Of a DNA stretch of 64,000 nucleotides, positions 9,467-28,194 are shown piece after piece. The notes beneath the pieces are model-generated. The model saw only the letters and a list, made by a program, of their open reading frames with translations, did no database searches and was not told the origin of the DNA. Position numbers and translations under genes: made by a program. The stretch comes from Candidatus Koribacter versatilis Ellin345. GTDB taxonomy: Bacteria; Acidobacteriota; Terriglobia; Terriglobales; Acidobacteriaceae. Location: the NCBI RefSeq assembly GCF_000014005.1, contig NC_008009.1:1860001-1924000 (forward strand), written 5' to 3'. Each line of letters starts with the position of its first letter. Position 1 is the first letter of the stretch.

Positions 9467-9473
9467 GCTGCGG

Positions 9474-10784: not shown

Positions 10785-10787
10785 GGT

Positions 10788-12260
10788 TTAGCTCCAGCGC
10801 TCGATGACGACTTTCTTGTCGGTGTAAAACTCGATCGCATCACGACCTTGGCCGTGGAGGTCGCCGAAGAAGCTCTCCTTCCAGCCGCTGAAAGGGAAGT
10901 AGGCGACAGGTGCAGGGACACCGATATTGATGCCAATGTTTCCAGCTGGCGCTTCATGGCGGAAACGTCGCGCGTGCGCTCCATTGGTGGTGAAGAGAGA
11001 TGCGGCATTACCGTACGCGCTCTTGGAAAGCAGCTCAATCGCATGCTCGAGACTGTCGGCGTGCACCAGGCTCAACACGGGGCCGAAGATTTCAGTCTGT
11101 GGCACATCGCTGTCGGCGGGCACTTCATCGAGAATCGTCGGCGCAAGGAAGTTGCCGCGCTCATGATTCGCAACCCTGTAGCCGCGGCCATCGGTCACGG
11201 CTTTTGCACCTTGCTTCACAGCATGGTCAATAACTTCTTCGATTCGTGATTTGCTCTGCGCGGTGATCACGGGCCCCATCTGTGTCCCTGCTTCGAGTCC
11301 GTTGCCGGTCTTGAGGTGCGCGGCGAACTCAGAGACGGCTTCGCGGAAACCCTTCTGGGCCTCACCGACAGTGACTCCAACACTCAATGCCAGGCATCGT
11401 TGTCCCGCACAACCGAAGGCGCTCTCGCCCACGATGTTCGTCGCCACTTTCATGTCGGCATCGGGCAGGATGACCGCGTAGTTCTTTGCGCCGCCCTGGC
11501 ATTGCACGCGCTTGCCGTTCTTTGCAGCGCGCTCGTAGATGTAACGGGCTACGGGCGTCGACCCGACGAAGCTGATGGCGCGCACCTCAGGGTGGTCGAG
11601 CAGAGCGTCCACCGCGGGTTTACCTCCGTTCAGCAGGTTGATGACGCCCTTCGGCAATCCTATCTGATGAATCAGTTCGAAAACCTTCTGCATTGTGAAC
11701 GGTACGCGCTCACTTGGCTTCAGGATGAAACAGTTCCCAGTAGCGATTGCGTAGGGCAGGTACCAGAAGGGAATCATTGCCGGAAAGTTGAACGGTGTGA
11801 TCGCGGCTACGACTCCGATTGGATGGCGATACATGATTTCGTCAATGCCACGCGATATGTTTTCGAGGTTGTAGCCCTGCATCATCAGCGGAATTCCGCA
11901 GGCGACTTCAACGTTCTCAATGCCGCGACGCACTTCTCCTCGTGCTTCGGTGAGCGTCTTGCCGTTCTCGATCGTCACCGTTCGGGCGATTTCTTCGAAG
12001 TGCTCCTCCATTAGCTGTTTCAGCTTGAAGATGTATTGAATGCGGTCGCCGGGCGGCGTCTCGCGCCACGCGGGCCACGCGGCAGCGGCCGCGCGCACCG
12101 CTTCATTCACTTCGTCGGCGCCGGAGAGGGGCACGTGCGCCAACGGCTCAGCCGTGGCGGGGTTATAAATCTCGAGAACATCGCCAGAGTGGCTGGTCCG
12201 CCACTCGCCGTTGACAAAATTCTGGACCTGGAGAAGCTCGGTTTGTGCTGTGGTACTCAT
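10788..12260 (-). CDS. mmsA: CoA-acylating methylmalonate/malonate-semialdehyde dehydrogenase
   Basis: ALDH-superfamily member of 490 residues. MmsA enzymes convert (methyl)malonate semialdehyde, CoA and NAD to propionyl- or acetyl-CoA, CO2 and NADH. The family replaces the usual ELGG general-base motif with a GAKN motif, seen here as [12 protein letters not shown]. The catalytic Cys is in [11 protein letters not shown], and [14 protein letters not shown] is typical of this branch. The ATG at 12260 is preferred over a GTG five codons upstream. Between two aminotransferase genes, the likely role is finishing beta-alanine breakdown (beta-alanine to malonate semialdehyde to acetyl-CoA). Confidence 0.9.
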
Positions 12261-12298
12261 CGTACAAATCACCAATTTCGACAGAATATGTTGCGTAA

Positions 12299-13660
12299 CT
12301 ATGAAACTCCGGTAGTCACACGAGAAGTCGCAAACTCGTGCGAGAGGGCCGATTCCATTACGTCGAGCGCTTCTTCGAATTGCGCATCGGAAATGACGAG
12401 CGGCATGAGAATGCGAATGACGTTGCTATACGTGCCCGCGTTGAGAGTAATCACGCCGCGCTCATAACAATATTGGATGATGTGCTTCGTCGCGGAGTCG
12501 TTGGGAGTTCGTGACTCGGCCGAGCGCACCAGTTCGATCGCCTGCATCCCGCCAAGGCCGCGCACTTCGCCAATCTGCGGCCACTGCGCTTGCCACCGCA
12601 GGGCACGGGCCCGGAAGCGTTCACCCAGTGCGTTAGCGCGCGCCGGAAGATCCTGGCGCTGCATGGCTTCAATCGTTGCCAGCGCGGCTTCGCACGCAAG
12701 AGGACTGCCTCCGAACGTTCCGCCGATGCCGCCCGGTATGGGCGCATCCATGATTTCTGCGCGGCCCGTGATGGATCCAATTGGCAAACCACCGCCGAGA
12801 GATTTCGCGCCGATCAAAATGTCCGGTTCAACGCCGTAGCGCTCGCAGGCAAACATCGCGCCGGTGCGGCCGAAGCCGGTCTGTACTTCGTCGGCGATGA
12901 AGACGATGCCGTGCTGCTTGCAGATGCCGTGCAGCTTTCGCAAGAAATCGCTGGGCGGGGTCACGAACCCACCTTCGCCGAGCACCGGTTCAATAATGAT
13001 CGCCGCCACGGATTCTGCTGCCACAGTGCGCTTGAAGACGCCTTCTAAAGCATCGGCACACGCAACTTCGCAACTCGGATACTTCTTCCCATAGGAGCAG
13101 CGATAGCAGTACGCGTAGGGGATGCGATAAATCTCGCTAGGGAATGGCTCGAACCCAGCTTTGTACGGATGCGTCTTGCTGGTGAGGGCCATCCCCAGCG
13201 TGGTCCGCCCGTGGAACGCATCTTCAAAGCAGATAACCGCGGGACGTTTGGTGTGATAGCGCGCGATCTTCACCGCGTTCTCGACGGCTTCCGCGCCGGA
13301 GTTCACGAAGAACGTACGCTTTGGAAATTCGCCGGGGGTGATCTCATTCAATTTCTCCGCAAGACGGATGTAGCTCTCGTATCCGACAACCTGAAAGCAG
13401 GTATGGAGAAAGCGGTCGGTCTGACGATGAATGGCTTCGACGACGGCAGGTGAGCGATGCCCAACATTGATTACGCCGATGCCGCCGGCGAGGTCAATGA
13501 AGGTATTGCCATCCACATCCTCGATCAGCGCGCCTTCCGCACGCGACACATAGATGGGCGTCGATGCGTAGATACCGCGAGGAACCGCGGCCGATCGGCG
13601 GCTCGCAAGCTCCAGCGCTTTCGGTCCCGGAACCTTGGTTCGCAAAACAATTGAGGCCAT
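12299..13660 (-). CDS. gabT: 4-aminobutyrate aminotransferase (GabT-type)
   Basis: Class III aminotransferase of 453 residues. It shows [51 protein letters not shown] and the PLP lysine in [34 protein letters not shown] is a Cys-rich segment also found in bacterial GabT enzymes. The start is fixed by an ATGA overlap with the stop of the upstream aldehyde dehydrogenase (13658-13662); an upstream in-frame extension only shadows that gene. Expected reaction: GABA plus 2-oxoglutarate to succinate semialdehyde plus glutamate. The operon position directly after an aminobutyraldehyde-type dehydrogenase supports a putrescine-to-succinate path. Confidence 0.92.
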
Positions 13661-15141
13661 CAGTACCACCCAATCGGCTGTTCGCTGAGGTTGATGTGCA
13701 CCTGCTTGGTCTCGAGGTATTCCTCTACTCCCCACGGGCCGAGCTCGCGTCCAAAGCCGGATTGCTTGTATCCGCCCCACGGCGCCTCGTAATACGTGGG
13801 TTGCATGTGGTTCACCCACACGATGCCGGCGCGGATCTTCTTCACCATGCGGAATGCCTTGAAGATGTCGCGCGTCCAAACCGCAGCGGCGAGGCCGAAG
13901 GGCGTGTCGTTGGCGATCTTCAGGCCATCAGCTTCGTTGTCGAATGGGATGACGGACGCCACCGGTCCAAAGATTTCTTCGCGCGCAATGCGAGCGCTAT
14001 TGTCCACGTCATAGAAGATCGTCGGTTCGACGTAATAGCCCTTAGCGAAGCCGCTGGGGCGATTGCCGCCGGATGCGACCTTCGCTTCTTTCTTGCCGAT
14101 CTCCTGATACTCGCGAACGCGCTCATATTGGTCTTTGCTGACCAACGGACCCATCTTCGTATCGCGATCGAGCGGCGCGCCGAGTTTTATCTTCTTGGCC
14201 TTTTCGGTCATCGCCTCCACGAACTTCTTATAGATCGGGCGCTCGACAAGAATTCGGCTGCCCGCGGAGCAGACTTCGCCCTGGTTGATGAAGACGCCGA
14301 AGAGTGCGCCATCAATCGCAGCTTCAAAGTCGGCATCGGCGAAGAAAATATTCGGCGATTTACCGCCGAGTTCGAGCGAGACGCGCTTCAGTGTGGCGCT
14401 CGCCTCGCGCATAATCAGCTTGCCCACGCTTCCACTGCCGGTGAAGGCAATCTTGTCCACATCTTTATGCGCGACGATGGGCGCACCCGCTTCTTCACCG
14501 TATCCGGTCACAACATTTACTACGCCATTCGGCAGCCCCACTTCTTCGAAGTGCTTCGCAAGTTCCAGCAACGTGAGGGGCGTCTGTTCGGCAGGCTTGA
14601 TGACAACGGTGCAGCCCGCAGCAATGGCGGGAGCAAGCTTCCACGCGGCCATCGCCAGCGGATAGTTCCACGGAATGATCTGCCCTGCGACCCCGATCGG
14701 TTCCTTTAGCGAAAGGCTAACTGCGTTGTCAGGAACCGGATTCACCTGGCCGGTGATCTTCGTCGCGAGCCCGCCGTAGTACTCGAAACAGGTAGCGCAA
14801 TCGGCAATGTCGTACTCGGCTTCGACGATGGGCTTGCCGGAATTGCGACACTCGATCTCGGCGAGTTCAGCCGTGTGCTGGCGGATCTTTTCAGCAATGC
14901 GGAAGAGGACGCGTCCGCGCTCCTGCGCGGTGGTTGCGTTCCAGGGGCCATCGTCAAAAGCCGTTCGGGCGGCGGCAACGGCACGGTCAACATCGGCAGC
15001 GTTTCCTGCCGGACACTCAGCAATCACTTCTTCCGTCGAAGGATCGTAAACGGGGAACAACTTTCCCGTGGCGCTTTCGACGAACTTGCCATCGATGTAC
15101 ATCTGGTAGGTTTTGGTGCTGGTTTTCGTAGCCGTATCCAT
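13660..15141 (-). CDS. Aldehyde dehydrogenase, betaine-aldehyde/aminobutyraldehyde type
   Basis: NAD-dependent ALDH of 493 residues, full length. It contains PWNYPLAMAAWKLAPAIAAG, FTGSGSVGKLI, SLELGGKSPNIFFADAD and the catalytic Cys in NQGEVCSAGSRILVE. The overall pattern fits the BetB/PuuC/PatD group that oxidises omega-amino aldehydes. In this operon the natural substrate would be 4-aminobutanal (or its gamma-glutamyl form), giving GABA for the aminotransferase translated from the overlapping ATGA. Neither a gamma-glutamyl-putrescine synthetase nor PuuD is present in the window, so the direct non-glutamylated route is more likely. The substrate is inferred from context. Confidence 0.9.
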   Translation of the reverse strand: MDTATKTSTKTYQMYIDGKFVESATGKLFPVYDPSTEEVIAECPAGNAADVDRAVAAARTAFDDGPWNATTAQERGRVLFRIAEKIRQHTAELAEIECRNSGKPIVEAEYDIADCATCFEYYGGLATKITGQVNPVPDNAVSLSLKEPIGVAGQIIPWNYPLAMAAWKLAPAIAAGCTVVIKPAEQTPLTLLELAKHFEEVGLPNGVVNVVTGYGEEAGAPIVAHKDVDKIAFTGSGSVGKLIMREASATLKRVSLELGGKSPNIFFADADFEAAIDGALFGVFINQGEVCSAGSRILVERPIYKKFVEAMTEKAKKIKLGAPLDRDTKMGPLVSKDQYERVREYQEIGKKEAKVASGGNRPSGFAKGYYVEPTIFYDVDNSARIAREEIFGPVASVIPFDNEADGLKIANDTPFGLAAAVWTRDIFKAFRMVKKIRAGIVWVNHMQPTYYEAPWGGYKQSGFGRELGPWGVEEYLETKQVHINLSEQPIGWY

Positions 15142-15159: not shown

Positions 15160-16653
15160 CTAGGCAGCTTGGTTGGCTGCGGATTGCGCAGCGAGGCGGG
15201 CCTTGCGGCCGCCATAAATAAAGAAGAAGAACGCGGCAAGCCCAATGAAGAACGCTGTGCCGCCAAACATTTTAAATTCGTACTGCGATACAGATTTGAT
15301 GGTTTGCGCCGGGAAAAAGGCGAGCGCAATTCCGAGCGTAGTCGTAATAAATCCACTGATGCCGGAGAGCAACAGCGCTGGACGCCCGTAAACGCCCTTA
15401 CCCGCTTCGTACTTCAACCCGAAGCGCACCAGCGCGCCAAACATATAAAGGAAGGGAACGAGTTGCAGGACGACTGCGAGCGAAAGCATCGTTTGAAACG
15501 TTTCCTGTACGCCGGCGCCGCCGAGGAAGTTCACGAGTACCAGCAACAGTGAGATCACAGCATGCACGATCAGAGCTGCGTACGGCGTGGCGTACTTCGG
15601 ATGCACGCGTCCGAGCCAGCTCGGCATGTAGTTGTCGAGGCCGGCAACGAAGGGAATTCGCGCTGATCCAGCGAGCCATGCGGATCCAATGCCGGCAATC
15701 GCCAGGCTGAGCATCAATGCAAATGGGACGATAATCCAGGTCACGTGTGCTTGCTCAGCAAGATGTCCGACGGCCTGCACGATCCCTTGCAGAACGCTGA
15801 TACCGTTTTTCCCTGCAGCAACGAGCAGGGTGAGCGTCACCGATATATAGAGCAAGCCGGAGATGACTCCGCCCCACAACACTGCGCCTGGTAGCGTTTT
15901 ACGAGGTTCCTGAATCTCGTCGCCCATAATCGAGGCGAGTTCGAGTCCGACCAATCCAAAGCAGATCACGCCAAAGGCGTTAAACAGAAATCTTCGATCG
16001 GTCGGGATGGCGAAGTTTACGTAGTGAATCGAAGCGCCCTGCTTCAATCCGACAACAAGTCCAAGGATCAGAAGTGTTGCGGCGGCGATGAAGGTTCCGA
16101 TCGCGCCGATGTTGTTGATCCACTTTCCAACGCCAAGCCCGATAACGTTGAGCACAACCAGCACGATCAGCAGCACTAAAGATGCGCTTAGCGCGAAAAC
16201 CTTGTTATCCGCAAGACCCTGGTGTGAAGGGCCAAGTACATACACAGACACGCCGACGAAGTAGAGCATCACCGTCGGAACGTAGAGCATGTTGTTGGTC
16301 CAGTAGCACCAGCCGGAAAGAAAGCCGTGGAAGTCGCCGAACACCTCCTTTGCCCACAGATACACGCCGCCCTCGCCGGGGTAGCGGTGAGCGAGTTCGA
16401 TGACCGCGATGCCTTGCGGCCAAAAGAAGAGCACCAGTGAAATAAGCCAGAGCCAGATCGTGACCCCGCCGTTGGCGGCAATCGAAGGAACCACATTCAG
16501 ATTGAAAACGGCAACCACGAACAGCAGCACCAGGTCCCATTTTCCAAGGACGCGCTTAAGGTGCGGGGTTTCGGTCTGGCTGTTCGTCAAGCGATTCTCC
16601 GGAGTCGGCCGATGGCGGCAGGGTAGAGGACGGGGCTGGTTGGCCCCGTCCAT
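15160..16653 (-). CDS. APC-family amino acid/polyamine permease
   Basis: Inner-membrane secondary transporter of 497 residues with about 12 hydrophobic segments. The N-terminal APC signature helix region reads LGKWDLVLLFVVAVFNLN. Later segments include GVICFGLVGLELASIMGDEI and GSARIPFVAGLDNYMPSWLG, the latter conserved in GABA/glutamate-type permeases. A TTG at 16590 preceded by CCGGAGA is a credible alternative start and would remove 21 hydrophilic, poorly conserved residues. It lies 21 bp after one aminotransferase and 18 bp before the next aldehyde dehydrogenase. Import of GABA, beta-alanine or a related amine is likely but not provable from sequence. Confidence 0.88.
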   Translation of the reverse strand: MDGANQPRPLPCRHRPTPENRLTNSQTETPHLKRVLGKWDLVLLFVVAVFNLNVVPSIAANGGVTIWLWLISLVLFFWPQGIAVIELAHRYPGEGGVYLWAKEVFGDFHGFLSGWCYWTNNMLYVPTVMLYFVGVSVYVLGPSHQGLADNKVFALSASLVLLIVLVVLNVIGLGVGKWINNIGAIGTFIAAATLLILGLVVGLKQGASIHYVNFAIPTDRRFLFNAFGVICFGLVGLELASIMGDEIQEPRKTLPGAVLWGGVISGLLYISVTLTLLVAAGKNGISVLQGIVQAVGHLAEQAHVTWIIVPFALMLSLAIAGIGSAWLAGSARIPFVAGLDNYMPSWLGRVHPKYATPYAALIVHAVISLLLVLVNFLGGAGVQETFQTMLSLAVVLQLVPFLYMFGALVRFGLKYEAGKGVYGRPALLLSGISGFITTTLGIALAFFPAQTIKSVSQYEFKMFGGTAFFIGLAAFFFFIYGGRKARLAAQSAANQAA

Positions 16654-16674: not shown

Positions 16675-18045
16675 TTAGTGCACCACTGCCTCGCGCGGTT
16701 CCTTCTGCGCGACCGCCAAGGCGGGAGCGATCTCGCCAAACACCGCGAGATGCTTCTCGGTATCCGCATCGGTGTGTGCGACGGACATGGTCCACTGCTC
16801 GTCCCACCAGTAAGGCTGTGGCATTACGCCGCGATTGACCATGGCGAACCAATACTGCTGCCAGAGACTCGCGTCGACTTCGAGCCAATCGCGATAGTTA
16901 CGCACGCGCTTCGGAGCGAACATCAGTACGCCGTTTGCGCCGGCAATTTCCAGGTAAGCGTCCAGCCCGACTTCTTCGACGACTCTGCGATAGCCAGTCA
17001 CGAGCTTGTGGCTGAGCTTCTCCACATGCGCGTAGTTCTCGCGAGTCAGGACTTCGCGGAAGGTCGCTAAGCCAGCGGCCATCGATACGGGGTTGGTGTT
17101 GTAGGTGCCGCCATGGAAGACCTTGTGATCGGAGATGAGTCCCATCACTTTCTTCGAGGCGCCGAACGCAGCGAGCGGCAGGCCGCCGCCGATCGACTTT
17201 GCCAGGCAGATGGCGTCGGGTATCACGCCGAAGTATTCGGACGCTCCACCCCAGCCCAGCTTGGCGCCGGTCTTCACTTCGTCGAAGATCAGCAGCGCAC
17301 CGTGCTTGTCGCACAATTCGCGCAGTCCTTCGAGGAAGCCCGGTTCCGGCATGCAGATGCCGACGTTCATCATCACCGGTTCGAGGATGATCGCAGAGAT
17401 CTCGTTAGGATGGGTCTTGAAGCGATGTTCCACGCTCTCAAGGTCGTTGAAGCTGGCAATCAGCACATTGGCCACTGCCGTCTTCGGGACACCCTGTCCA
17501 CCGGGAACGGCAATCGGAGCTTTGAGATCGCCGATCTGCTCCAGCTTCGGTTTCACACTGACTAGTGCAGCGTCATGCAATCCGTGGTAACCGCCTTCGA
17601 ACTTGATGATCTTGTCGCGACCGGTCGCCGCGCGGCAAAGACGCACGGTGTGCATTGTGGCCTCGGTCCCAGTCGAGGCAAAGCGCAACATTTCGATAGG
17701 GAAGCGGGCGCAGATCTCTTCCGCGAGTTCCCACTCCATGTCGTGCGGCATGCCAAACATCGTGCCGGTGGTCAGGCGTTTCTCCACCGCCTTCATTACT
17801 GCCGGGTGGCAATGGCCCGCCATTAACGCGCCAAACGTGAGGTTGTGGTCAATGTATTCGTTCCCGTCGAGGTCGCGGAACTTCGAGCCGAAAGCGTCCT
17901 TAACAAAAATTGGATACGGATCGTAAGCGCGATAATTACTTGCAACGCCGAGCGGTAAACGCTTCAGGTTGCGCTTGTGGGCTTCGGCTGATTTGGGTGT
18001 GCGCTTTTCAAAAAGTTCGATTTCCTGCCGCAATGCGTCGTGCAT
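16675..18045 (-). CDS. Class III aminotransferase, glutamate-1-semialdehyde-aminomutase-like
   Basis: PLP enzyme of 456 residues of the HemL-like branch. It has YIDHNLTFGALMAGHCHP, RFASTGTEATMHTVRLCRA, FEGGYHGLHD, LLIFDEVKTGAKLGWGG and the PLP lysine in CLAKSIGGGLPLAAFG. True HemL enzymes serve tetrapyrrole synthesis. Here the gene is the first enzyme of a catabolic operon, directly behind a TonB receptor and ahead of a permease, so a role on a diamine or omega-amino acid is more likely than 5-aminolevulinate formation. The start ATG at 18045 follows an AAAGGAG-like site. The exact substrate is unknown. Confidence 0.85.
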   Translation of the reverse strand: MHDALRQEIELFEKRTPKSAEAHKRNLKRLPLGVASNYRAYDPYPIFVKDAFGSKFRDLDGNEYIDHNLTFGALMAGHCHPAVMKAVEKRLTTGTMFGMPHDMEWELAEEICARFPIEMLRFASTGTEATMHTVRLCRAATGRDKIIKFEGGYHGLHDAALVSVKPKLEQIGDLKAPIAVPGGQGVPKTAVANVLIASFNDLESVEHRFKTHPNEISAIILEPVMMNVGICMPEPGFLEGLRELCDKHGALLIFDEVKTGAKLGWGGASEYFGVIPDAICLAKSIGGGLPLAAFGASKKVMGLISDHKVFHGGTYNTNPVSMAAGLATFREVLTRENYAHVEKLSHKLVTGYRRVVEEVGLDAYLEIAGANGVLMFAPKRVRNYRDWLEVDASLWQQYWFAMVNRGVMPQPYWWDEQWTMSVAHTDADTEKHLAVFGEIAPALAVAQKEPREAVVH

Positions 18046-18136: not shown

Positions 18137-21100
18137 CTAAAAGAGAATCTTGAAGGCAAACTGGATGAGGCGCGGGTCGCGAGTGCTCTTGATGCGTCCG
18201 AAGTCGCTTCCATCCGTGATGTTGCCATCGGGGTTATAGAACTGGGTGTGGTTGAGAATATTGAAGAACTCAGCGCGGAACTGCGTGTCCCAACGCTCGC
18301 CGAATTTCGTGTTCTTCACGAACGTCATGTCCCAGTTGGCAATTCCGGGACCACAGCAGATGGTACGGCTCGCGTTACCGACGGTTCCCAAGGCGACGTT
18401 ATCCGTGAAGATTTGGCCGTCGGTACCATCGAAATAGTAGCCGCCGTGCGACCGGGGATCCCAAGTGGTGAATTTTCCGACCTGGTTCGGTTGCCCAACG
18501 GTTTCGAAATCGAAGCTGCTATACAACTCGTTGTCGTTCTGGTCGGTTATGCGGATCGGGAATCCGCTCTGGATCGTCACGATGCCCGAGGTCGCCCAGC
18601 CGTTGAGCGCTTTGCCTGCGAAGCCTTCGAACTTGCGGATCGGCAGTTCCCAATCGTAGCTGGCGACAAAGCGATGTCGCGCGTCGAAGAGCGAAGCGGC
18701 ATAGCTGCGATGAATGTCGACCGGATTGACGATACCTTCGAAGCTCGAGCCTTCATCGAGAGATTTGCTGTAGGTGTACGCCAGCTGGAACTGCAGACCA
18801 GCGGAGAACCGCCGTTGCAGCATTGCCTGGAACGAGTTGTAGTTCGAATTGCCGACCGTGTCCTGCGCAAAGATGCTCGAGAAGACTGGTACTTGGTCCG
18901 CCGGGCAACCAACGCCCGTCATCGGATGGCAATTGGGGGAAGAGTAGGGGCGAAGACCAACGAGAGTGATGCCGTTCGGCCCAACCACGGTACCGCCAGG
19001 AATAAAGGTTGAGCCATCCGGATTGTAGGGAAGGTTCAAGCCCTGCGGAGCGATGACCGTGCCTTCCGGGATGTAGAAGGAGCTGTCGCCAAAGTACTGC
19101 GCGCACGTCCCGTCACCCATGGTGGCGTTTAGGTCGAGACACGTTTGCGGATTCGCATAGTTGATGTCATGCGTAACCAGCAGGCGGTGAGCCTGTGAGC
19201 CAACGTAACCGAGTTGCAGCACGGTGTCTTTGCCGAACTCGCGCTGGATATTCAGGTTGTACTGCTCGGAGTACTGCGTCCGGATGTGCGGCTGCATATC
19301 GCCGTAGAGAAGGATCGGACGGAACGAAGACCAGTCGATCGACGTCCCTGGCTTCGGCGTCAGGATCCCGTTGAACGGGTTCGGGTACTGGTTGCCCGCC
19401 GTATCCTGGAACGGCGTATTGAACATGGAATCGTAGATGTAGTTGCTACCGCCGAACGGAGGCTCGGCGCCGAACTGCTCAAGCACAAGCTGCTCAATCG
19501 GGTTGTAGAACAAGCCAAAGCCTGCGCGGATACTGGTCTTCCCGGGGCCTCCGAACAGGGCCTTGCTCAGCCCGCTATCGGCATTCGGACTGTATGCGAT
19601 ACCGATGCGCGGCGCCCATCCCTTGTAATAGGTGTCCGTCATACCCGGTGGTACACCTTTATCTCCGGGGAATACCAACCCGACAGGGAAGAAGGCGTTG
19701 TCCGGAGCGTTGGGTCCGCAGGTGCATGGATACTTGTCCGTAACCTGCCCGGGGCGGTACGTTTGCACGTGGCCAAGTTGGTCAGCAAGCGGTGTATTCA
19801 ACTCCCAGCGCAATCCATAGTTCAACGTGATGTTCGGTTTGATCTTCCAGCTGTCTTGCGCGAACAGATACAGAGATGTGCTGCGGACGTTTTCGCGCTG
19901 CGCTGAACCCTGCGAATAGCTCGCCGGCAATCCGAGGAACCAGTCCGCCAACGGTAAGCCGGTGGTCGTCGAATCGGAATAGTACGAGTAGTAGCCGTTG
20001 ACGTTGTAGTACAGCGTCTGGTCGAAGCGCATGCGGCGAACATCGCCACCAAACTTCAGCGTGTGATTGCCCCACACCTTGCTCAAGTTATCGGACCACG
20101 CAAAGCTATTGCCCACCTGTGGCAATTGGCCTTCGAAATTGTTGCCGATGTTGAACGCGCCGGATACCGAGATGAATGGAACACCTTCGACGCTCGCACC
20201 GAGGTTCGGCGTGATTCCGAGCTTCGGATTCGTCGGGTCGCTGAAGCACATTGTCGGATCAACCAGCCCCTGGCACGAATTCTGCACAATGTCAGTCCGT
20301 GCGGGCTTCTCGAATCCTCGCTGGCCTTCACGCATGTAGGTGAAGCGCGCTTCGTTCACCACCGTGTTGCTAATCGTCCACGTATGCGACAGGTTGTATT
20401 GCTGCACACGCGTCGGAATCTGCGCGCCAAATCCGGGCACGTTCGCGCCTGCCGCCTGGAAGAACGACAACGCCTGTTGCGTGGTGGAATCGTCCATGTA
20501 CCAGTAGAAGTTCAGGTTCTGGTTGTTCGTGAGGCGATGATCTATCTTTATAGAACCTTCATTACCGTTGATGATTTGCGGAGGCGCGCTCTGGTAGTAG
20601 CCGCCCGGCTGGTTAGGCAGCGGGACGTAGAGCTTGGTGAGCGCCGAGGCGGTTGGATCGAGACACTGCGACGGCACCATTCCACCTGGGAACACATCGG
20701 CCCAAGCCTCTCCTCCGACGACCGGTCCGTTCGCAAGATACGGGCCGCAACGAGAGTTCAGCGTGTCCGCCATCAGCGAACTTCCATCTTCCGCGGAGTT
20801 CACATTGCCTGTGAATTGCGGCATGTTTACAGGGTCGAGCAGGGAGCTGAAGTCACCATTGCGCATTGCCGAATCCGGCATGAAGCTCAGGTCCGTCGGC
20901 GTGCCTTGTTTCACTCGACGCCCTTCGTACGAGACGAAGAAGAACGTCCGGTCTTTAACGATCGGTCCGCCCAACGTTCCACCAAACTGGTTCTGCTGGA
21001 AAGCGGGCTTAAAAGTATTGAAGTAGCCCTGCGCATTCAGGACTGCATTTCGAAAGAATTCGTAGGCGCTTCCATGCCAATTATTGGTGCCCGACTTGGT

Positions 21101-21835
21101 CACCACGTTGATCACGGCGCCGGAGTTGCGGCCATATTCAGCGTCGAAAGTGTTAGTGATAACGCGGAATTCTTCAATGCTGTCAGGATTCGGCTGGATG
21201 GTCGGAAGGTTCGCGAACAAGTCGTTTGCGTCGCCGCCATTCACATTGAAATTGTTCGAACGGCCGCGGCCGCCGTTCACGGAGACCACACCCGGCTTAT
21301 CCGATCCGTACGCCACCGTGTTGCTGCCGCCAACGTTCGACATTACGCCCGGCTGCAACTGCAGAAGTTGATAGGTATCGCGAGAGTTCAGCGGAAGCTG
21401 CTCCACCGAGCGCGATCCCATCACTGCACCCAACTGCGTCGAAGTCGTATCAACGATAGGTGCTTCCGAACTGACGTCGACCACTTCCTGCTTCTGGCCT
21501 AACTGCATCGTCTGGTTCAGGGTCATCGCCTGGTTCAAAATCACCGTGACGTGGTGCAGCACGTTCTGCTTGAAACCTGTGGCCGTATATTCAATGCCGT
21601 AATCGCCCACCGGCACGCTCGGGAAGCCGTAATTGCCGTCCTTATCGGACTCCGTGGTATTCGCCACGCCGGTCGCTTCGTTGGTGAGCGTCACGGTGGC
21701 GCCGGGTATGACTGCGCCGCTGGGATCTGAAATCTTGCCGAGGATACGGCCGCCAGTGCTTTGCGCAATTGCCGATGCGGCGAGCACCGCAATGATGAAC
21801 AGCGCAACGAAACATCGGTTCCAGAAACGGTACAT
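18137..21835 (-). CDS. Oar-like TonB-dependent outer-membrane receptor
   Basis: A 1232-residue outer-membrane protein. A signal peptide (about 1-25, ending ASAIAQ) is followed by a carboxypeptidase-regulatory-like Ig-fold domain (GRILGKISDPSGAVIPGATV through YGIEYTATGFKQ). A plug-like region comes next (VVDVSSEAPIVDTTSTQLG, SVEQLPLNSRDTYQLLQLQPG), then a long beta-barrel ending in the aromatic C-terminus FAFKILF. This architecture is the expanded acidobacterial Oar/TonB-receptor family. It is the promoter-proximal gene of the minus-strand operon, so it probably brings the substrate of the downstream enzymes through the outer membrane. Ligand specificity cannot be read from the sequence. Confidence 0.9.
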   Translation of the reverse strand: MYRFWNRCFVALFIIAVLAASAIAQSTGGRILGKISDPSGAVIPGATVTLTNEATGVANTTESDKDGNYGFPSVPVGDYGIEYTATGFKQNVLHHVTVILNQAMTLNQTMQLGQKQEVVDVSSEAPIVDTTSTQLGAVMGSRSVEQLPLNSRDTYQLLQLQPGVMSNVGGSNTVAYGSDKPGVVSVNGGRGRSNNFNVNGGDANDLFANLPTIQPNPDSIEEFRVITNTFDAEYGRNSGAVINVVTKSGTNNWHGSAYEFFRNAVLNAQGYFNTFKPAFQQNQFGGTLGGPIVKDRTFFFVSYEGRRVKQGTPTDLSFMPDSAMRNGDFSSLLDPVNMPQFTGNVNSAEDGSSLMADTLNSRCGPYLANGPVVGGEAWADVFPGGMVPSQCLDPTASALTKLYVPLPNQPGGYYQSAPPQIINGNEGSIKIDHRLTNNQNLNFYWYMDDSTTQQALSFFQAAGANVPGFGAQIPTRVQQYNLSHTWTISNTVVNEARFTYMREGQRGFEKPARTDIVQNSCQGLVDPTMCFSDPTNPKLGITPNLGASVEGVPFISVSGAFNIGNNFEGQLPQVGNSFAWSDNLSKVWGNHTLKFGGDVRRMRFDQTLYYNVNGYYSYYSDSTTTGLPLADWFLGLPASYSQGSAQRENVRSTSLYLFAQDSWKIKPNITLNYGLRWELNTPLADQLGHVQTYRPGQVTDKYPCTCGPNAPDNAFFPVGLVFPGDKGVPPGMTDTYYKGWAPRIGIAYSPNADSGLSKALFGGPGKTSIRAGFGLFYNPIEQLVLEQFGAEPPFGGSNYIYDSMFNTPFQDTAGNQYPNPFNGILTPKPGTSIDWSSFRPILLYGDMQPHIRTQYSEQYNLNIQREFGKDTVLQLGYVGSQAHRLLVTHDINYANPQTCLDLNATMGDGTCAQYFGDSSFYIPEGTVIAPQGLNLPYNPDGSTFIPGGTVVGPNGITLVGLRPYSSPNCHPMTGVGCPADQVPVFSSIFAQDTVGNSNYNSFQAMLQRRFSAGLQFQLAYTYSKSLDEGSSFEGIVNPVDIHRSYAASLFDARHRFVASYDWELPIRKFEGFAGKALNGWATSGIVTIQSGFPIRITDQNDNELYSSFDFETVGQPNQVGKFTTWDPRSHGGYYFDGTDGQIFTDNVALGTVGNASRTICCGPGIANWDMTFVKNTKFGERWDTQFRAEFFNILNHTQFYNPDGNITDGSDFGRIKSTRDPRLIQFAFKILF

Positions 21836-21911
21836 GTCTATCTCCCCGAACGAGCGAATGGGAATTCAGTCCGCTACAGCTTGTCTTTGAAATGGGCCCC
21901 GAAGTTGACGC

Positions 21912-21939
21912 TTGCAACGAAAACAAACCTTGCTATAAT
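21912..21939 (+). promoter_or_regulatory. Sigma-70-type promoter of the regulator/pot operon
   Basis: A TTGCAA hexamer (21912-21917), a 16-bp spacer and a consensus TATAAT (21934-21939) lie about 40 bp upstream of the regulator start. The -10 hexamer falls inside the spacer of an inverted repeat, so a bound regulator would cover it. The matching minus-strand promoter for the receptor operon was not resolved. Confidence 0.6.
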
Positions 21940-21950
21940 CGCGCAAGGTT
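21926..21950. promoter_or_regulatory. Inverted-repeat operator overlapping the -10 box
   Basis: Perfect 8-bp arms AACCTTGC (21926-21933) and GCAAGGTT (21943-21950) flank a 9-bp spacer that contains TATAAT. It lies in the only divergent intergenic region of the polyamine island, directly upstream of a MerR-XRE-cupin regulator. Autoregulation, and coordinate control of both arms, is the natural reading. Binding is inferred; only the symmetry is seen. Confidence 0.6.
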
Positions 21951-21979
21951 ATTGAATCCCTCTCTCTCTGTCAAGCATT

Positions 21980-22858
21980 TTGGCCACGAAAAATTCAATT
22001 CGTTCCGTTCACAAGAACGGCGGTCGCGGCGTAGCGATCGTGCCCGCGGATGCCCCGGCGAACGCGAACGACGCGCCCCTGCTGAAGATCGGTGAAGTGG
22101 CCGACACCGTGGGTATCTCCGCCTCAGTCATTCGCTCGTGGGAAAAGCTCGGACTCATCGCGCCGCAACGTACCGGCAGTAAATACCGGCTCTATTCGCA
22201 GGAAGATGTACGTCTGCTTCAGCGCGCTCGCTATTTAAGCAGGGTTCGCGGCATGAACGCGCCGGCGATCATCGAATTGATGCGCACCAAGGGCGAGATC
22301 AAGGCTAGCCGCAACGGATCGGCCGACAACGTTGGACTCCGCTTGCGATTAGTGCGCACTTCGCGTGGTCTCTCACTGGCTCAGGTCGCTGAAGCGGTAG
22401 GAATCTCGGTTGGGTTCTTAAGCGCGATTGAACGCTCGGCCATGAGCGCATCAGTTGCGACCCTCCGCAAACTCGCGAAGTTCTACAAGCTCAACATCCT
22501 CGATCTCTTCGACCAAAGTGGTGGTCGTCAGTATCTTGTACGCCCTGCAGAACGCCGCCAACTCGATGCCAGCGACGGTGTGCGCATGGAATTGCTTGCG
22601 TGGGGCAATCCCGTCATGGAGCCGCATCTGTTCCACGTCGCGCCTGGCGCCGGTAGCGGCGACGAGGAGTACTCGCACGAAGGCGAAGAGTTTTTGTTTG
22701 TGCTTACCGGCCTGCTCAACCTGGTAGTGGATGGCAAAGAGTACCGCCTGCAGAAAGGCGACAGCTTCTACTTCGAGAGCTCCACGCCACATCGCTGGTC
22801 GAATACAGGATCGAAAGAAGCCGTAGTCTTGTGGGTAAATACGCCGCCGACGTTCTAG
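21980..22858 (+). CDS. MerR-XRE-cupin fusion transcriptional regulator
   Basis: A 292-residue protein with three recognisable modules. A MerR-type winged HTH spans about 34-100 (LLKIGEVADTVGISASVIRS, WEKLGLI, YRLYSQEDV). An XRE/Cro-type HTH spans about 112-172 (LRLVRTSRGLSLAQVAEAVG, SVGFLSAIERS). A C-terminal cupin spans about 195-290 (YSHEGEEFLFVLTG, GDSFYFESSTPHRW). XRE-cupin proteins such as PuuR control putrescine catabolism; an added MerR DNA-binding head is unusual. The start is a TTG at 21980 with a poor ribosome site; a GTG about 20 codons later is possible. It leads the potDABC-like operon (18-bp gap) and faces the catabolic operon, so it probably senses a polyamine or derived amino acid through the cupin pocket. 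Confidence 0.88.
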   Translation: MATKNSIRSVHKNGGRGVAIVPADAPANANDAPLLKIGEVADTVGISASVIRSWEKLGLIAPQRTGSKYRLYSQEDVRLLQRARYLSRVRGMNAPAIIELMRTKGEIKASRNGSADNVGLRLRLVRTSRGLSLAQVAEAVGISVGFLSAIERSAMSASVATLRKLAKFYKLNILDLFDQSGGRQYLVRPAERRQLDASDGVRMELLAWGNPVMEPHLFHVAPGAGSGDEEYSHEGEEFLFVLTGLLNLVVDGKEYRLQKGDSFYFESSTPHRWSNTGSKEAVVLWVNTPPTF

Positions 22859-22876: not shown

Positions 22877-23938
22877 ATGTCCAAACGCTTTGCCCTCGCG
22901 CTGCTGGTTGTCTGTACTTTGTTTCTCGGCTCATGCTCGAAGAAAGTGCCGACGCTCAACCTTCTCGTATGGGAGGGCTATGCCGATCCCTCTTTCGTGA
23001 AGGGCTTCGAAGAGAAATATCACTGCAAGGTCGCAGCAAGCTACATGGGGTCAAGCGATGAACTCGTCGCCAAGCTGCGTGGCGGTAGCGCGTCGAACTA
23101 CGATGTAATCTCGCCGTCCAGTGACGTCGCGACTAGTATCGCGAAGAATGGTCTCGCCGCTGAAATCGACACTACGCAAATCCCCGACTACAACAGTCTC
23201 TCGCAGCAGCTTCGCGATCTCCCTCTCGTCAAAGCAAATGGCAAGACCTATGGAGTCCCATTCATGTGGGGCCCGAATCCTCTGCTTTACGACACTTCTT
23301 ATTACAAGACGGCGCCGCAAAGCTGGGCTGACTTGTGGGACCCAAAGCTGAAGTCGAAGATCTCCGTCTGGGATGATCTCTCCACCGTCTATATGGCGGC
23401 ACAAGTGCTCGGCTACGACAAGCCCGATCCAGCGCACCTCTACAATCTCACCGACGACGAACTCGAAAAAGTCAAAGCAAAGCTTCTCGAATTAAAGCCA
23501 AACGTTCGCAAGATGTGGTCTACCGGTGGGGAACTGACCAACCTTTTCCAGAACCACGAGGTCGTCGCCGCGATGGGCTGGCCGCTGATGACGAATCAAC
23601 TTCATAAGGCCAACTTTCCAATCGGCGAAACCATTCCGAAGGAAAACACGACCGGCTGGATCGACCATTTGATGATCACCGCCGCCAGCGACAACAAAGA
23701 TCTCGCGATGAAATTCCTGGCATACATGGTCGAAGCGAAAACGCAGAAGGCCGTTACCGACGTGACCGGCTACACACCGGCCAATCCCACTGCCGCGCAA
23801 CTCATGACCGACCAGGAGAAGAAGAGCCTTCACCTCGCTGATGTCGAGGGCTACCAGAAGCACATCTATTTCTGGCAGGATGTTCCGCGCCGTGCGAAGT
23901 ACAACGAAATCTGGAACCAGGTGAAAGCCGCGCAATAG
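22877..23938 (+). CDS. potD: Spermidine/putrescine-binding lipoprotein PotD-like
   Basis: Periplasmic solute-binding protein of 353 residues and an ABC-importer component. The lipoprotein signal peptide ends in the lipobox LGSC with Cys20. The mature part starts LNLLVWEGYADPSFVKGFEE, typical of PotD/PotF. It continues with the PYDV-like NYDVISPSSDV, VPFMWGPNPLLYDTSYY and SWADLWDPKLKSKISVWDD. The family binds putrescine, spermidine or related cations between two lobes. Four ABC genes are contiguous, and the regulator lies 18 bp upstream. Confidence 0.92.
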   Translation: MSKRFALALLVVCTLFLGSCSKKVPTLNLLVWEGYADPSFVKGFEEKYHCKVAASYMGSSDELVAKLRGGSASNYDVISPSSDVATSIAKNGLAAEIDTTQIPDYNSLSQQLRDLPLVKANGKTYGVPFMWGPNPLLYDTSYYKTAPQSWADLWDPKLKSKISVWDDLSTVYMAAQVLGYDKPDPAHLYNLTDDELEKVKAKLLELKPNVRKMWSTGGELTNLFQNHEVVAAMGWPLMTNQLHKANFPIGETIPKENTTGWIDHLMITAASDNKDLAMKFLAYMVEAKTQKAVTDVTGYTPANPTAAQLMTDQEKKSLHLADVEGYQKHIYFWQDVPRRAKYNEIWNQVKAAQ

Positions 23939-23946
23939 CGCTCCGC

Positions 23947-25011
23947 ATGACGACCTCATCCGTTCCGGAAAACGTCTCAGTCGGGCAGGCGCTGCTCGCG
24001 GTGGACTGCGTCGCCAAGCGCTTTGGAAAGAACATCGTTCTTCGAGACGTTTCCCTTACGGTCGCGCAAGGTGAGTTCCTCAGCATCCTCGGCGAGAGCG
24101 GTTCCGGCAAAACGACGCTGCTGCGTCTCATCGCGGGCTTCGAGCAACCGGACGGCGGTACCATCACCATGGCCGGCGAGCGCATCGAGAACCTCCCGCC
24201 TTACAAGCGCCGCGTAAACACGGTCTTCCAAAGCTACGCGCTCTTCCCACATCTCAACGTGGAAGAGAACGTCGCCTACGGATTGAAGGTCAACAAAACT
24301 TCCAAAGGTGAAATCCCCAAGCGTGTGCAGGAAGCGCTCGCCATGGTGAAGATGGAGAGTTTCGCAAAGTCGAAACCATCCAAGCTCAGCGGCGGACAGC
24401 AGCAGCGGGTTGCGCTCGCGCGCGCATTGGTAAATCGTCCCAAGCTCCTATTGCTCGACGAACCGCTGTCCGCGCTCGATGCCAACCTGCGGCGCGAAAT
24501 GCAATTCGAATTGAAATCGCTCCAACGCGAAGTCGGCATCGCCTTCGTCTTTGTCACGCACGACCAGGAAGAGGCGATGACCATGTCCGATCGCGTCGCC
24601 CTGCTGCGTTACGGAGCACTGGAGCAGATTGCCAGTCCGCGGGAAATCTATGCCAAGCCCGCCACCGCGTATGTCGCGCAGTTCATCGGACACAGTAACC
24701 TCTTGCGCTGTACAGTGAGCCGCGGCATCGCTCGCTGCGGTAACCTGATGTTCACAACCTCGGCGCCCGACGGCCCCGCGGTCTTCTCGCTCCGGCCAGA
24801 AGCAATCCGCATCGCCAGCACGGCGAGCGATCAAGTCAGGTTCAAAGGCACCGTCGCTCGCCAGGTCTTCCAGGGCGCCACTGAGCTGTACGAACTCGAC
24901 GCCGGCGGTTTTCGGCTGAATGCGAAGATCTATGGTTCGGGAGTTCCCTCGGGCGAGAGCGAATTCGAGTGTTCTCCCGCTGACATCGTTGTCGTGAAGG
25001 AGAGCCTCTAG
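23947..25011 (+). CDS. potA: Polyamine ABC transporter ATP-binding protein PotA-like
   Basis: ATPase subunit of 354 residues. It has Walker A GESGSGKTT, Q-loop VFQSYALFPHL, ABC signature LSGGQQQRVALARAL, Walker B LLLLDEPLSALD and switch His in FVTHDQEEAM. A C-terminal TOBE-type regulatory domain (about 240-354, including VFSLRPEAIRI) follows, as in PotA/MalK-type subunits. The gap after potD is 8 bp, and its stop overlaps the GTG start of the first permease. It drives import of the substrate delivered by the PotD-like lipoprotein. Confidence 0.94.
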   Translation: MTTSSVPENVSVGQALLAVDCVAKRFGKNIVLRDVSLTVAQGEFLSILGESGSGKTTLLRLIAGFEQPDGGTITMAGERIENLPPYKRRVNTVFQSYALFPHLNVEENVAYGLKVNKTSKGEIPKRVQEALAMVKMESFAKSKPSKLSGGQQQRVALARALVNRPKLLLLDEPLSALDANLRREMQFELKSLQREVGIAFVFVTHDQEEAMTMSDRVALLRYGALEQIASPREIYAKPATAYVAQFIGHSNLLRCTVSRGIARCGNLMFTTSAPDGPAVFSLRPEAIRIASTASDQVRFKGTVARQVFQGATELYELDAGGFRLNAKIYGSGVPSGESEFECSPADIVVVKESL

Positions 25012-25856
25012 TGTTCTCCCGCGCCTACAAAGCTGCGGTGGCATTGCCCCCGATCTTTTGGGTCGCGGCGTTCCTGCTCACGCCCTATTTGCTCTTGTTC
25101 TGCAATAGCTTTTGGAGCGTGCAGGACGGTCAAGTGATCGTCCATAACTGGGGCCTGCAGAATTACAAACAACTCGCCAGTGTTCCCGTTTACGTGCAGG
25201 TATTGCTGCGCTCTATGAAGATCGCGGGCGGCGTTACGCTGCTCGCGCTGCTGCTCGGTTATCCGCTTGCGTATTACGTTGCGTTCTACGCCAAGCACAA
25301 GCAGTTGCTCTACCAGCTCGTCATCATTCCGCTGTGGGTGAGCTACCTCGTCCGCGCCTATGCGTGGAAGACGATCCTTGGCAGCGATGGAGTCCTCAAC
25401 ACGCTGCTGCAATACCTGCATATCACCCACGAGCCCGTCGGCGCGCTGCTCTACAGTCCGTTCGCCGTCGTACTTACATTGACGCATATCTATACGCCGT
25501 TCACGTTCCTGCCGATTTATGCGGCGCTCGAACATATCCCAAAGAATCTCGTGGAAGCCTCGCAAGACCTCGGCGCCTCGCGCGTAAAGACCTTCTGGCG
25601 TGTGATCGTCCCGCTTTCCATCCCCGGTGTCCTGGCCGGCGCGACGTTCGCCTTCGTGCTGAGCCTCGGCGACTTCCTCGCACCGCTGCTGCTCGGTGGG
25701 CCGAGCGGCATAATGATCTCCAACGTAGTGGTTACGCTCTTCGGCGCTGCCTATGATTGGCCGCTCGGCGCCGCGATATCCGTCTGCATGATGCTCATCG
25801 TTCTTGCCCTTCTTTTCCTCACCGAGCGCCTCGAAAAGAAATGGAGCTTCTCCTGA
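25011..25856 (+). CDS. potB: Polyamine ABC transporter permease PotB-like
   Basis: Inner-membrane permease of 281 residues with about six hydrophobic segments (for example PIFWVAAFLLTPYLLLFCNS). The cytoplasmic EAA loop that docks on PotA is LVEASQDLGASRVKTFWRVI, followed by PLSIPGVLAGATFAFVLSLG. The GTG start overlaps the potA stop. The second permease gene begins at the stop codon (TGATG), implying coupled translation and a heterodimeric PotB-PotC channel. Confidence 0.93.
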   Translation: MFSRAYKAAVALPPIFWVAAFLLTPYLLLFCNSFWSVQDGQVIVHNWGLQNYKQLASVPVYVQVLLRSMKIAGGVTLLALLLGYPLAYYVAFYAKHKQLLYQLVIIPLWVSYLVRAYAWKTILGSDGVLNTLLQYLHITHEPVGALLYSPFAVVLTLTHIYTPFTFLPIYAALEHIPKNLVEASQDLGASRVKTFWRVIVPLSIPGVLAGATFAFVLSLGDFLAPLLLGGPSGIMISNVVVTLFGAAYDWPLGAAISVCMMLIVLALLFLTERLEKKWSFS

Positions 25857-26683
25857 TGAGCACGAGCAGCGAGAAGCGCCCACTGTGGCTGCGCATTCAC
25901 ATGATCGCGGTCTTTGCGTTCCTCTATTTGCCGATCACAATCCTGGTCATCTACTCGTTTAATGGCGGCGGTGTCGGCGGGTTCCCGCCGCGCAACTTCA
26001 CCCTCAACTGGTACCGCATGCTGCTCGACGACGGCGCACTCTGGGATGCCGTGCTCAATAGCCTTGAAGTCGCGTTCGCCGCTGTCATCATCGCTGTCAG
26101 CCTGGGCCTTCCGGCCGCGCTCGCCCTCGATCGCGTGAACTTTCCCGGCAAAGTCCTGTTCCGTCGGCTGGTGCTTCTACCGTTGATTCTTCCGGGCATC
26201 ATTACAGGCCTTTCGCTGTTGATGCTCGTGGTCGCCGTGCATCTGAAGCTCAGCCTGGTAACGATCATTCTCGGTCACGGTACCGCTCTCATCTCCGTCG
26301 CGACGACAGAAATCTTCGCAGGTCTGCAAAAGGCCCAGCGCTCGCAGGAAGAAGCCTCACTCGATCTCGGCGCGAATTATTGGCAAACATTCTGGCGCGT
26401 CACGCTTCCGAACCTGAAGCTTGCAATCATCGGCGCTGCGCTGCTCATCTTCACGCTCTCCATGGACGAGATCGCCGTCAGCTTTTTCCTTATCGGGCGC
26501 GACAACACTCTGCCACTCGAGATCTGGTCGCGCCTGCGCCGCGGCATGACCCCCGAGATCAACGCCATTTCAACCATCATCTTTGTCTTTTCTCTGGCAC
26601 TCATTTTGTTCTGGTATCGCTTGCGCAAGCCCGGCTCTGAAGAATGGGAGACCGCGGCCCACGCCGTCGAAGGGGAAGCATGA
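25856..26683 (+). CDS. potC: Polyamine ABC transporter permease PotC-like
   Basis: Second permease, 275 residues, with an N-terminal FAFLYLPITILVIYSFNGGG typical of PotC/PotI. Its EAA loop reads QEEASLDLGANYWQTFWRVT. The ATG at 25856 is chosen because it overlaps the potB stop (TGATG) with GGAG 9 nt upstream; the longer frame extends only into potB. The stop overlaps the amine-oxidase start (ATGA). It completes the PotDABC transporter. Confidence 0.93.
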   Translation: MSTSSEKRPLWLRIHMIAVFAFLYLPITILVIYSFNGGGVGGFPPRNFTLNWYRMLLDDGALWDAVLNSLEVAFAAVIIAVSLGLPAALALDRVNFPGKVLFRRLVLLPLILPGIITGLSLLMLVVAVHLKLSLVTIILGHGTALISVATTEIFAGLQKAQRSQEEASLDLGANYWQTFWRVTLPNLKLAIIGAALLIFTLSMDEIAVSFFLIGRDNTLPLEIWSRLRRGMTPEINAISTIIFVFSLALILFWYRLRKPGSEEWETAAHAVEGEA

Positions 26684-28194
26684 GCACCAATCGCAGAGAT
26701 TTCATCCGTTTCGTCGTGGCGGGGGCAGTTGCCGCCGGCTGTCCAATTCCTCTGAGGGCCGTGCCTGCAGAGGCGAAAACTGAAGTAGATGGTGAGCACA
26801 ACGAGATTTGTCACCAGGTCCGCGACGGCCACGCCTTCGCGAAGCCCGCGTCGTCGGCGAAGTACGACGTCGTAATTGTTGGCGGTGGCGTGAGCGGCAT
26901 GACCGCTGCCTATCTCCTCCGCGATAAGAATTTCCTCCTGCTCGAGAAGGAACCCCATTGGGGCGGCAACTCTTACATGGAGGAATACAACGGCGTCGGC
27001 TATGCCACGGGCGGAGCCTTCCTTGAACTAGGAGAACGCGCGTCGGAATTCTCAAAGTCGCTCGGGTTGGAGCAGCTTCCCATCGAGAACTGGGACGGCA
27101 TGATTCTCAATGGCAAGTTCGTTGCTGATTGCTGGGGCGATGGCATCGACAAGATTCCGTATTCAGCCAGCGTTCGCGAGAGCTTTAAAAAATGGCGCGA
27201 AGAGATATTGAAGATCGACGTGCTCTCGCGTGCCGCCGAACTCGACGCGCTTCCGCTGACGCATTTCACCAAGGGCTATCCGCAAGAGCTCACGGAGTGG
27301 TGGGACAACTACGGGCCATCCAACTGGGGCGCGAAATCCGCGGAAACCTCGGCGCTGATCGTCCTCTACGAAATGCAGCAGATCGCGGGAAAGACGCGCA
27401 AAGACCGGCGCTGCACATTGCCGGGAGGAATCGGCGCCTTGAACCGCCGCTTGTCGGAAGTTCTAACCGAAAAGCACAAAGAACACATGCAACTGTCTGC
27501 AACCACCGTCGCGGTCGCGCAGAAAAAAGATGGCGTGGACGTGACCTACATCGTGAACGGGGAACCGAAAACCGTTTCCGCGAAAGCCGTCATCATGGCC
27601 ACACCAAAGTTCATCACCGCGCGCCTCGTCGAGAGCATGCCCGCCGCGCAAAAGGCAGCCATCGCGAAAATGCACTACGTCCCGTACTGCGTGGTGAACT
27701 TGATGTATGACAAGCCGGTGTTCAACAGCGGTTACGATACCTGGTGCCCGGGCAATCGCTTTACCGACTTCATCGTCGCCGATTGGACAGTTCGAAACCA
27801 GCCTGGCTACAAGCAGAAGTACAACATCATCACTTGCTATACGCCGCTCGAAGAAGAAGAGCGTGTGTTGCTCCTGACGGAAGACGGCGCGAAGAGCGTG
27901 GCGGAAGATGTTTTGAGAGACTTCAAAAAACTTCTGCCCGAAACAAACGCCGATCCGCTCGAAGTGCACATCTACCGGCGCGGCCATCCGATGTACAAAT
28001 CGCTGCCCGGCAACTTCACCAAGGTCCAACCGCAAGTCCGGATCCCGATGGAGCGCATCGCCTTCGCAAACACCGATTCAGAAGGCCCGGTCTCCGCCAC
28101 CGGCGAGGGAATCAAGGCCGCACATCGCGCCGTGAATGAAGTGAACAAGATGCTCGCCGGTATCTCCGCAAAAAGCGCATCCGCTAACGGCTAG
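26680..28194 (+). CDS. Tat-exported FAD-dependent amine oxidase family protein
   Basis: Flavoprotein of 504 residues. The N-terminus carries a twin-arginine signal (STNRRDFIRFVVAGAVAAG), so the folded FAD protein is probably exported. After about residue 60 comes the Rossmann FAD motif VVIVGGGVSGMTAAYLL, then LLEKEPHWGGNSY. The C-terminus has the amine-oxidase-type second FAD contact region (GPVSATGEGIKAAHRAVNEV). The ATG at 26680 overlaps the potC stop, so it is co-transcribed with the polyamine importer. The likely substrate is a polyamine or amino acid amine, giving an aldehyde, ammonia and peroxide. The specific reaction is inferred. A strong hairpin follows the stop. Confidence 0.82.
   Translation: MSTNRRDFIRFVVAGAVAAGCPIPLRAVPAEAKTEVDGEHNEICHQVRDGHAFAKPASSAKYDVVIVGGGVSGMTAAYLLRDKNFLLLEKEPHWGGNSYMEEYNGVGYATGGAFLELGERASEFSKSLGLEQLPIENWDGMILNGKFVADCWGDGIDKIPYSASVRESFKKWREEILKIDVLSRAAELDALPLTHFTKGYPQELTEWWDNYGPSNWGAKSAETSALIVLYEMQQIAGKTRKDRRCTLPGGIGALNRRLSEVLTEKHKEHMQLSATTVAVAQKKDGVDVTYIVNGEPKTVSAKAVIMATPKFITARLVESMPAAQKAAIAKMHYVPYCVVNLMYDKPVFNSGYDTWCPGNRFTDFIVADWTVRNQPGYKQKYNIITCYTPLEEEERVLLLTEDGAKSVAEDVLRDFKKLLPETNADPLEVHIYRRGHPMYKSLPGNFTKVQPQVRIPMERIAFANTDSEGPVSATGEGIKAAHRAVNEVNKMLAGISAKSASANG

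Follow-up and report, generated by a model that had tools for sequence, protein, structure and literature searches.

Genes at the locus

The window analysed here is a 64,000-nt stretch of DNA from Candidatus Koribacter versatilis Ellin345 (NC_008009.1, positions 1,860,001 to 1,924,000), and all positions below are counted within it. The features of the locus are listed in table 1. The regulator gene opens a plus-strand unit, regulator–potD–potA–potB–potC–flavin amine oxidase, with gaps of at most 18 bp. A divergent minus-strand unit runs from the receptor gene through the dehydrogenase genes with gaps of at most 91 bp. Judged by the family names of the products, the gene set probably serves the uptake of polyamines and their conversion, by way of aminoaldehydes and GABA, to central metabolites (succinate). 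A preliminary description of this DNA had placed the regulator in a polyamine context, which agrees with the potDABC importer, amine oxidase and GABA genes adjoining it, and had correctly delimited the intergenic region (21836–21979). On the other side of the cluster, a second very large outer-membrane-receptor-like ORF (named by eye) lies at 28252–31569 on the minus strand.

Table 1. Features of the regulator locus (positions in the 64,000-nt window).
Feature	Position	Strand	Basis or remark
MmsA-type semialdehyde dehydrogenase, class-III aminotransferase, aldehyde dehydrogenase	8021..12275	-	operon membership by spacing
4-aminobutyrate aminotransferase GabT	12299..13600 (start not settled)	-	TIGR00700 562 bits vs NCBIfam cut-off 507
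Aldehyde dehydrogenase, betaine-/aminobutyraldehyde type	13660..15141	-	domain matches
Amino-acid/GABA permease (APC)	15160..16653	-	domain matches
Class-III aminotransferase, glutamate-1-semialdehyde-aminomutase (GSAM) type	16675..18045	-	domain matches
TonB-dependent-receptor-like outer-membrane protein, divergent neighbour	18137..21835	-	named from sequence by eye
Forward promoter TTGCAA-16-TATAAT	21912..21939	+	10/12 consensus matches, 0.1 expected
Candidate operator, perfect palindrome AACCTTGC-TATAATCGC-GCAAGGTT	21926..21950		8-bp arms, N9 spacer
Predicted reverse promoter TTGACA-17-TAACCT	21946..21974	-	conservation of both hexamers
Conserved asymmetric right flank A(G/T)(A/T)GAA, here ATTGAA	21951..21956		GAA in 31/32 orthologues
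Regulator ORF, MerR HTH - XRE HTH - PuuR-like cupin	21980..22858	+	292 aa, TTG start
MerR winged HTH, aa 36-102	22085..22285	+	Pfam MerR_1 6.1e-17
Cro/XRE HTH, aa 122-175	22343..22504	+	Pfam HTH_3 6.4e-14
Cupin sensor domain, aa 217-286	22628..22837	+	Pfam Cupin_2 3.6e-22; PuuR alignment
potD, potA, potB, potC: spermidine/putrescine-type ABC importer	22877..26683	+	domain matches; gaps <=18 bp
Flavin amine oxidase	26644..28194	+	Pfam Amino_oxidase 1e-20

Domain organization of the regulator

The Pfam search confirms the three modules announced in the preliminary description, a MerR HTH, an XRE HTH and a cupin in one chain, all with scores above the curated cut-offs. The same three domains (MerR_1, HTH_3 and Cupin_2) are matched in all 28 aligned relatives. 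Across these 28 sequences, residues R52, W54, E55, R64 and R70 are invariant in the MerR HTH and R126 and E151 in the XRE HTH; the linker after the MerR HTH varies in length. The chain ends in NTPPTF. The N-terminal 33 or so residues lie outside every domain match and are absent from most of the relatives, and no clear ribosome-binding site was seen before the TTG codon at 21980; the true start of the protein is therefore uncertain.

An AlphaFold2 model built from a four-row alignment has low overall confidence (mean pLDDT 69, pTM 0.37). It shows both HTHs and the cupin as three separately folded units, joined by floppy linkers at residues 110–116 and 177–193. The idea that only one HTH is folded, named beforehand as what would count against a two-headed protein, thus finds no counterpart in this low-confidence model, and the two HTHs are about equally conserved. 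After the MerR HTH, the model has only helix 94–103 and a floppy linker, and a long dimerization helix is absent. The best solved match found by Foldseek is 1y9q, a regulator of the HTH_3 family, which by sequence matches the XRE part and the cupin part. A sequence search of the PDB returned chains of XRE, MerR or cupin type and no chain extending across all three modules.

The last 174 residues, from the XRE HTH through the C-terminus, align colinearly with the XRE HTH and cupin of Escherichia coli PuuR (32% over 183 columns, 9e-27). This end-to-end alignment bears out the PuuR-type cupin sensor proposed earlier. PuuR likewise belongs to an amine pathway with aminotransferase and aldehyde dehydrogenase, that of putrescine utilization, but it has no MerR head. 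With the PuuR equivalog model NF007408 (NCBIfam), the regulator scores 87.9 bits, below the cut-off of 211; it is a MerR-headed PuuR-like variant outside the PuuR equivalog.

Like other XRE-cupin (PuuR-like) proteins, the regulator has HTH_3 followed by Cupin_2, adjacent metabolic genes and a palindrome beside its own gene, a site recognized by sequence only. According to PMC7901475, the Pseudomonas XRE-cupin proteins ErfA, PauR, PsdR and PA4987 are local inhibitors with palindromic motifs beside their own genes, and they serve the uptake or processing of amino acids and small molecules. The proteins described there consist of XRE and cupin only, whereas our regulator adds a MerR head; nowhere does the text of that paper use the term MerR. 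With the MerR family, the regulator shares the N-terminal winged HTH. It differs in its promoter geometry, in the lack of a coiled-coil helix in the model and in its effector part, which is made up of XRE and cupin.

Occurrence of the architecture

The genome of Ellin345 contains one full-length copy of the regulator. Among 396 genomes of Acidobacteriota, 30 have a match at 1e-15; in 15 of these the match covers all three modules, and in the other 15 essentially the XRE-cupin part only. There are matches at 1e-50 in 111 of 398 genomes of the same family, a few of them partial and cut at contig ends, and some of these genomes carry a second paralogue, 41–49% identical to the regulator. At least 80 per cent of the query is matched by 126 of 72,556 plasmid records, none with more than 60 per cent identity. 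The plasmid matches at 1e-25 are mostly from Sinorhizobium, Shinella, Ensifer and Agrobacterium, with Paracoccus, Microvirga and Arthrobacter also among those listed. A scan of genome contigs found only three loci, of which one (L036) is full-length with a broken frame. No relative was found in the virus contigs searched, and 16 phage records had a match, none reaching 80 per cent of the query.

Given these counts in the phylum, the family and the plasmids, and the three domains found in all 28 relatives, the MerR-XRE-cupin architecture is widespread rather than rare. The annotated relatives are mostly labelled just ‘MerR family’, and a search of the titles and abstracts of the open-licence PMC literature found no published description of such a protein, the study nearest to the subject being that of the Pseudomonas XRE-cupin inhibitors (PMC7901475). 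The architecture is thus common yet uncharacterized as far as these searches show; of the earlier proviso that it might prove both common and already characterized, only the first half holds. At the present locus, an operator and its regulon can be put to the test for a regulator class that carries no database label beyond ‘MerR family’ and that adjoins genes for GABA and polyamines, both in Acidobacteriota of soil and in plant-associated rhizobia.

A conserved palindrome in the intergenic region

The palindrome AACCTTGC-N9-GCAAGGTT lies between the regulator operon and the divergent receptor operon. We inspected 33 orthologues, from four loci and 29 more taken from the best 30 of the 111 matching genomes. 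The palindrome is kept in 32 of them; the exception (L094) is a contig that begins only about 80 bp ahead of the coding match, too close to reach the site. Across the 32 sequences, 21 of the 25 positions are invariant, and substitutions at the remaining four are seen in 1, 9, 1 and 2 sequences. The positions around the palindrome mostly vary freely. The right flank is conserved, at 0.84–1.00 per position compared with 0.41–0.62 for the six bases on the left, and the elements of neither promoter account for it.

With at most one mismatch, the palindrome occurs in four of the 396 genomes of the phylum, once in each. These are exactly the genomes of the same family whose regulator is 60–100% identical, a joint presence that partly reflects the shared neighbourhood. 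In the Ellin345 genome, no site with fewer than three mismatches was found besides 21926–21950, and sites with three mismatches show no excess (18 compared with 25 in the control). With a sole exact site and three-mismatch sites at control frequency, the regulator looks dedicated to its own locus.

The palindrome might instead be the site of another regulator, or mere promoter sequence, with the three-module protein acting elsewhere. TATAAT does form part of it, but almost every position of the arms that is not part of a promoter hexamer is the same in all 32 loci, the site is restricted to the four close-orthologue genomes among 396 and the genome has no second copy. We consider this reading quite unlikely, and we infer that the regulator binds the palindrome.

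Two predicted, overlapping promoters at the palindrome

The forward promoter is the only match of the consensus scan in the intergenic region. All 32 orthologues keep the TTG of its -35, and its -10 TATAAT falls within the palindrome. On the other strand, the -10 TAACCT has five of its six bases in the right arm of the palindrome. TAACCT and TGTCAAG (the reverse -35 read on the plus strand) are both present in 32 of 32 orthologues, with a spacer of 17 or 18. As TAACCT keeps only three of the six -10 consensus bases and falls below detection by a standard consensus scan, the reverse promoter is a prediction only, backed by the -35 at a near-fixed distance and by the receptor gene, found on the opposite strand in all 32 orthologous loci.

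Both predicted promoters fit into about 63 bp, where they overlap and have the one palindrome in common. Their predicted start points (about 21946 on the plus strand and 21939 on the minus strand) are each at or inside the -10 of the opposite promoter. The promoters are therefore predicted to be interlocked, with polymerase serving one at a time, and since both -10 elements lie under the same palindrome, one bound dimer would block both units. This supports the earlier view that the two divergent transcription units are probably controlled together. It does not favour the mechanism suggested with it, in which each head sits on a separate promoter and the two units are linked by looping. The presence of two HTH classes and of two divergent operons had invited that proposal; with overlapping promoters, one palindrome for both and no second equally conserved intergenic block besides the promoter elements and the small flank, it appears very improbable.

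The position of the site over the -10 elements suggests repression by the regulator and fits it better than MerR-type activation. In canonical MerR activators, the operator lies within a -35/-10 spacer of 19–20 bp and a long dimerization helix follows the HTH. A classical activator of this kind would bind an over-long spacer and untwist the promoter when its ligand is bound. The N-terminal position of the MerR HTH is as expected for such a protein, as is the half-site ACCTT of the palindrome, which we take to resemble those of CueR-type operators. The spacers, however, are 16 bp (forward) and 17 or 18 bp (predicted reverse), the palindrome lies over the -10 elements and not within the spacers, and in the low-confidence model the place of the long dimerization helix seems to be taken by helix 94–103 and a floppy linker. 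Classical MerR activation is thus unlikely here.

We propose that the regulator probably acts locally to repress the catabolism of polyamines and GABA until a ligand releases it, and that it would shut both interlocked promoters through one operator. A dimer would occupy the 25-bp palindrome (21926–21950) and so cover both the -10 of its own promoter, which serves regulator–potD–potA–potB–potC–amine oxidase, and the predicted divergent -10, which would serve the receptor, the aminotransferases including GabT, the permease and the dehydrogenases. Binding of a pathway amine in the cupin (putrescine, spermidine, GABA or an aminoaldehyde) would cause the dimer to leave the DNA. Gene context points to putrescine or a related amine as the ligand. 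The mode of action would resemble that of XRE-cupin repressors of the PuuR and PauR type with a MerR head added. If so, this pair of interlocked promoters, whose -10 regions overlap, would illustrate cleanly how a single natural site can control two divergent operons.

Gene context and dyads in the wider family

Counting somewhat against the proposed role, potD is found within the fetched downstream flank in only 18 of 32 orthologues. In several relatives, the place of potD immediately after the regulator is taken by an ORF of about 580 aa (L036 883–2622, L054 10220–11953 and L056 10926–12659); by Pfam it is an amidohydrolase in both of the loci searched, L036 and L056. Of 15 Acidobacteriota loci whose fetched stretches were searched by tblastn, 11 have a gabT-like gene close by, and three of the four without one lie on short contigs (3 to 7 kb).

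Several rhizobia have gabT or gabT-gabD divergent from the gene of the regulator relative. These proteins, annotated as ‘MerR family transcriptional regulator’, have the same three domains and 36–44% identity, and differ from the present system in their dyad (YTRCA-N7-TGYAR) and in that no polyamine importer was seen in the annotated stretches. One Shinella and one Sinorhizobium copy adjoin etf-folD-purU genes instead, and the Paracoccus and Arthrobacter copies adjoin other genes.

The dyad YTRCA-N7-TGYAR, written by eye from the rhizobial intergenic regions, is sometimes present there in two copies. It was applied to 25 Acidobacteriota loci outside the set used to write it. Twelve of the 25, with clades repeated among them, reach at least 9 of 10 positions, compared with 1.77 expected from dinucleotide shuffles; the other 13 miss it (L016–L018, L105–L107, L110, L111 and L113–L117). 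There are 12 perfect dyads in 19 loci: nine upstream of the regulator, two before the etf operon of S. chiapasense and one elsewhere. In S. chiapasense (L069 2439–2481), the tandem dyads precede the etf-purU-folD operon adjoining the regulator, not the regulator itself. Each of them is followed by GGTTTG and hence contains the arm GCAAGGTT of the window. The palindrome of the window itself scores at best 8 of 10 on this motif, with TTGC...GCAA common at equal spacing.

CTTGC-N9-GCAAG was also tried as a universal operator and rejected. It fails for the family as a whole, since only five of 25 loci other than close orthologues reach p < 0.05 (L019, L041, L071, L072 and L074), and four of these five are rhizobial and related.

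The second MerR-XRE-cupin paralogue carried by some Acidobacteriaceae (loci L105–L117, about 41–49% identical to the regulator) in some cases adjoins other receptors and gab-like genes. A palindrome with 8-bp arms like that of the window is absent from the 230 bp upstream of the paralogue in these loci; L108, L109 and L112 have CTACA-N7-TGYAA in its place.

Possible contributions of the two DNA-binding heads

In the 28 sequences, the recognition helix has a mean column entropy of 1.14 bits in the MerR HTH and 1.31 bits in the XRE HTH. As both helices are conserved alike, conservation gives no choice of the HTH that reads the site. A dyad of at least 9 of 10 positions is present in 24 of 41 loci with a MerR-headed protein, the window included, and in none of four loci of MerR-less XRE-cupin relatives, although this group of four is small, includes related loci and has different XRE domains as well. 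This contrast leans towards MerR as the reader of the palindrome, and we slightly favour that assignment.

If there is a second contact, the right flank is the likeliest place for it, since it is conserved on one side only and no promoter element accounts for it. The earlier alternative to bridging, in which one protein reads two different half-sites, may apply here. In a composite operator, one type of head would contact the symmetric core and the other the conserved flank, with MerR on the core and XRE on the flank or the two exchanged; this would refine the one-site repressor proposed above and not oppose it. Several observations are in keeping with such an arrangement: the conservation of both recognition helices, the asymmetry of the flanks, the dyad contrast between MerR-headed and MerR-less loci and, in several rhizobial loci, a further TGCAA-like half-site (seen by eye) about 8 bp after the dyad. 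On the other hand, the flank might be conserved as initial transcribed sequence or as some feature of a promoter, and the small, partly related MerR-less sample with its different XRE domains weighs on this point too. We put the composite operator forward tentatively, inclining somewhat against it. If both heads do bind, two unrelated DNA-binding folds would share one operator in a compact system. The still broader possibility of a widespread class of two-headed amine sensors, in which the MerR and XRE heads of one dimer sit on a composite operator, a genome-unique site controlling two mutually exclusive promoters, is doubtful at present.

One of the MerR-less XRE-cupin relatives counted above, from Phaeobacter (L122 3856–5546), is encoded divergently from etf-folD-purU-gabT, the type of target seen with MerR-headed relatives. 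The MerR head may possibly have been gained or lost within one regulatory role in this case.
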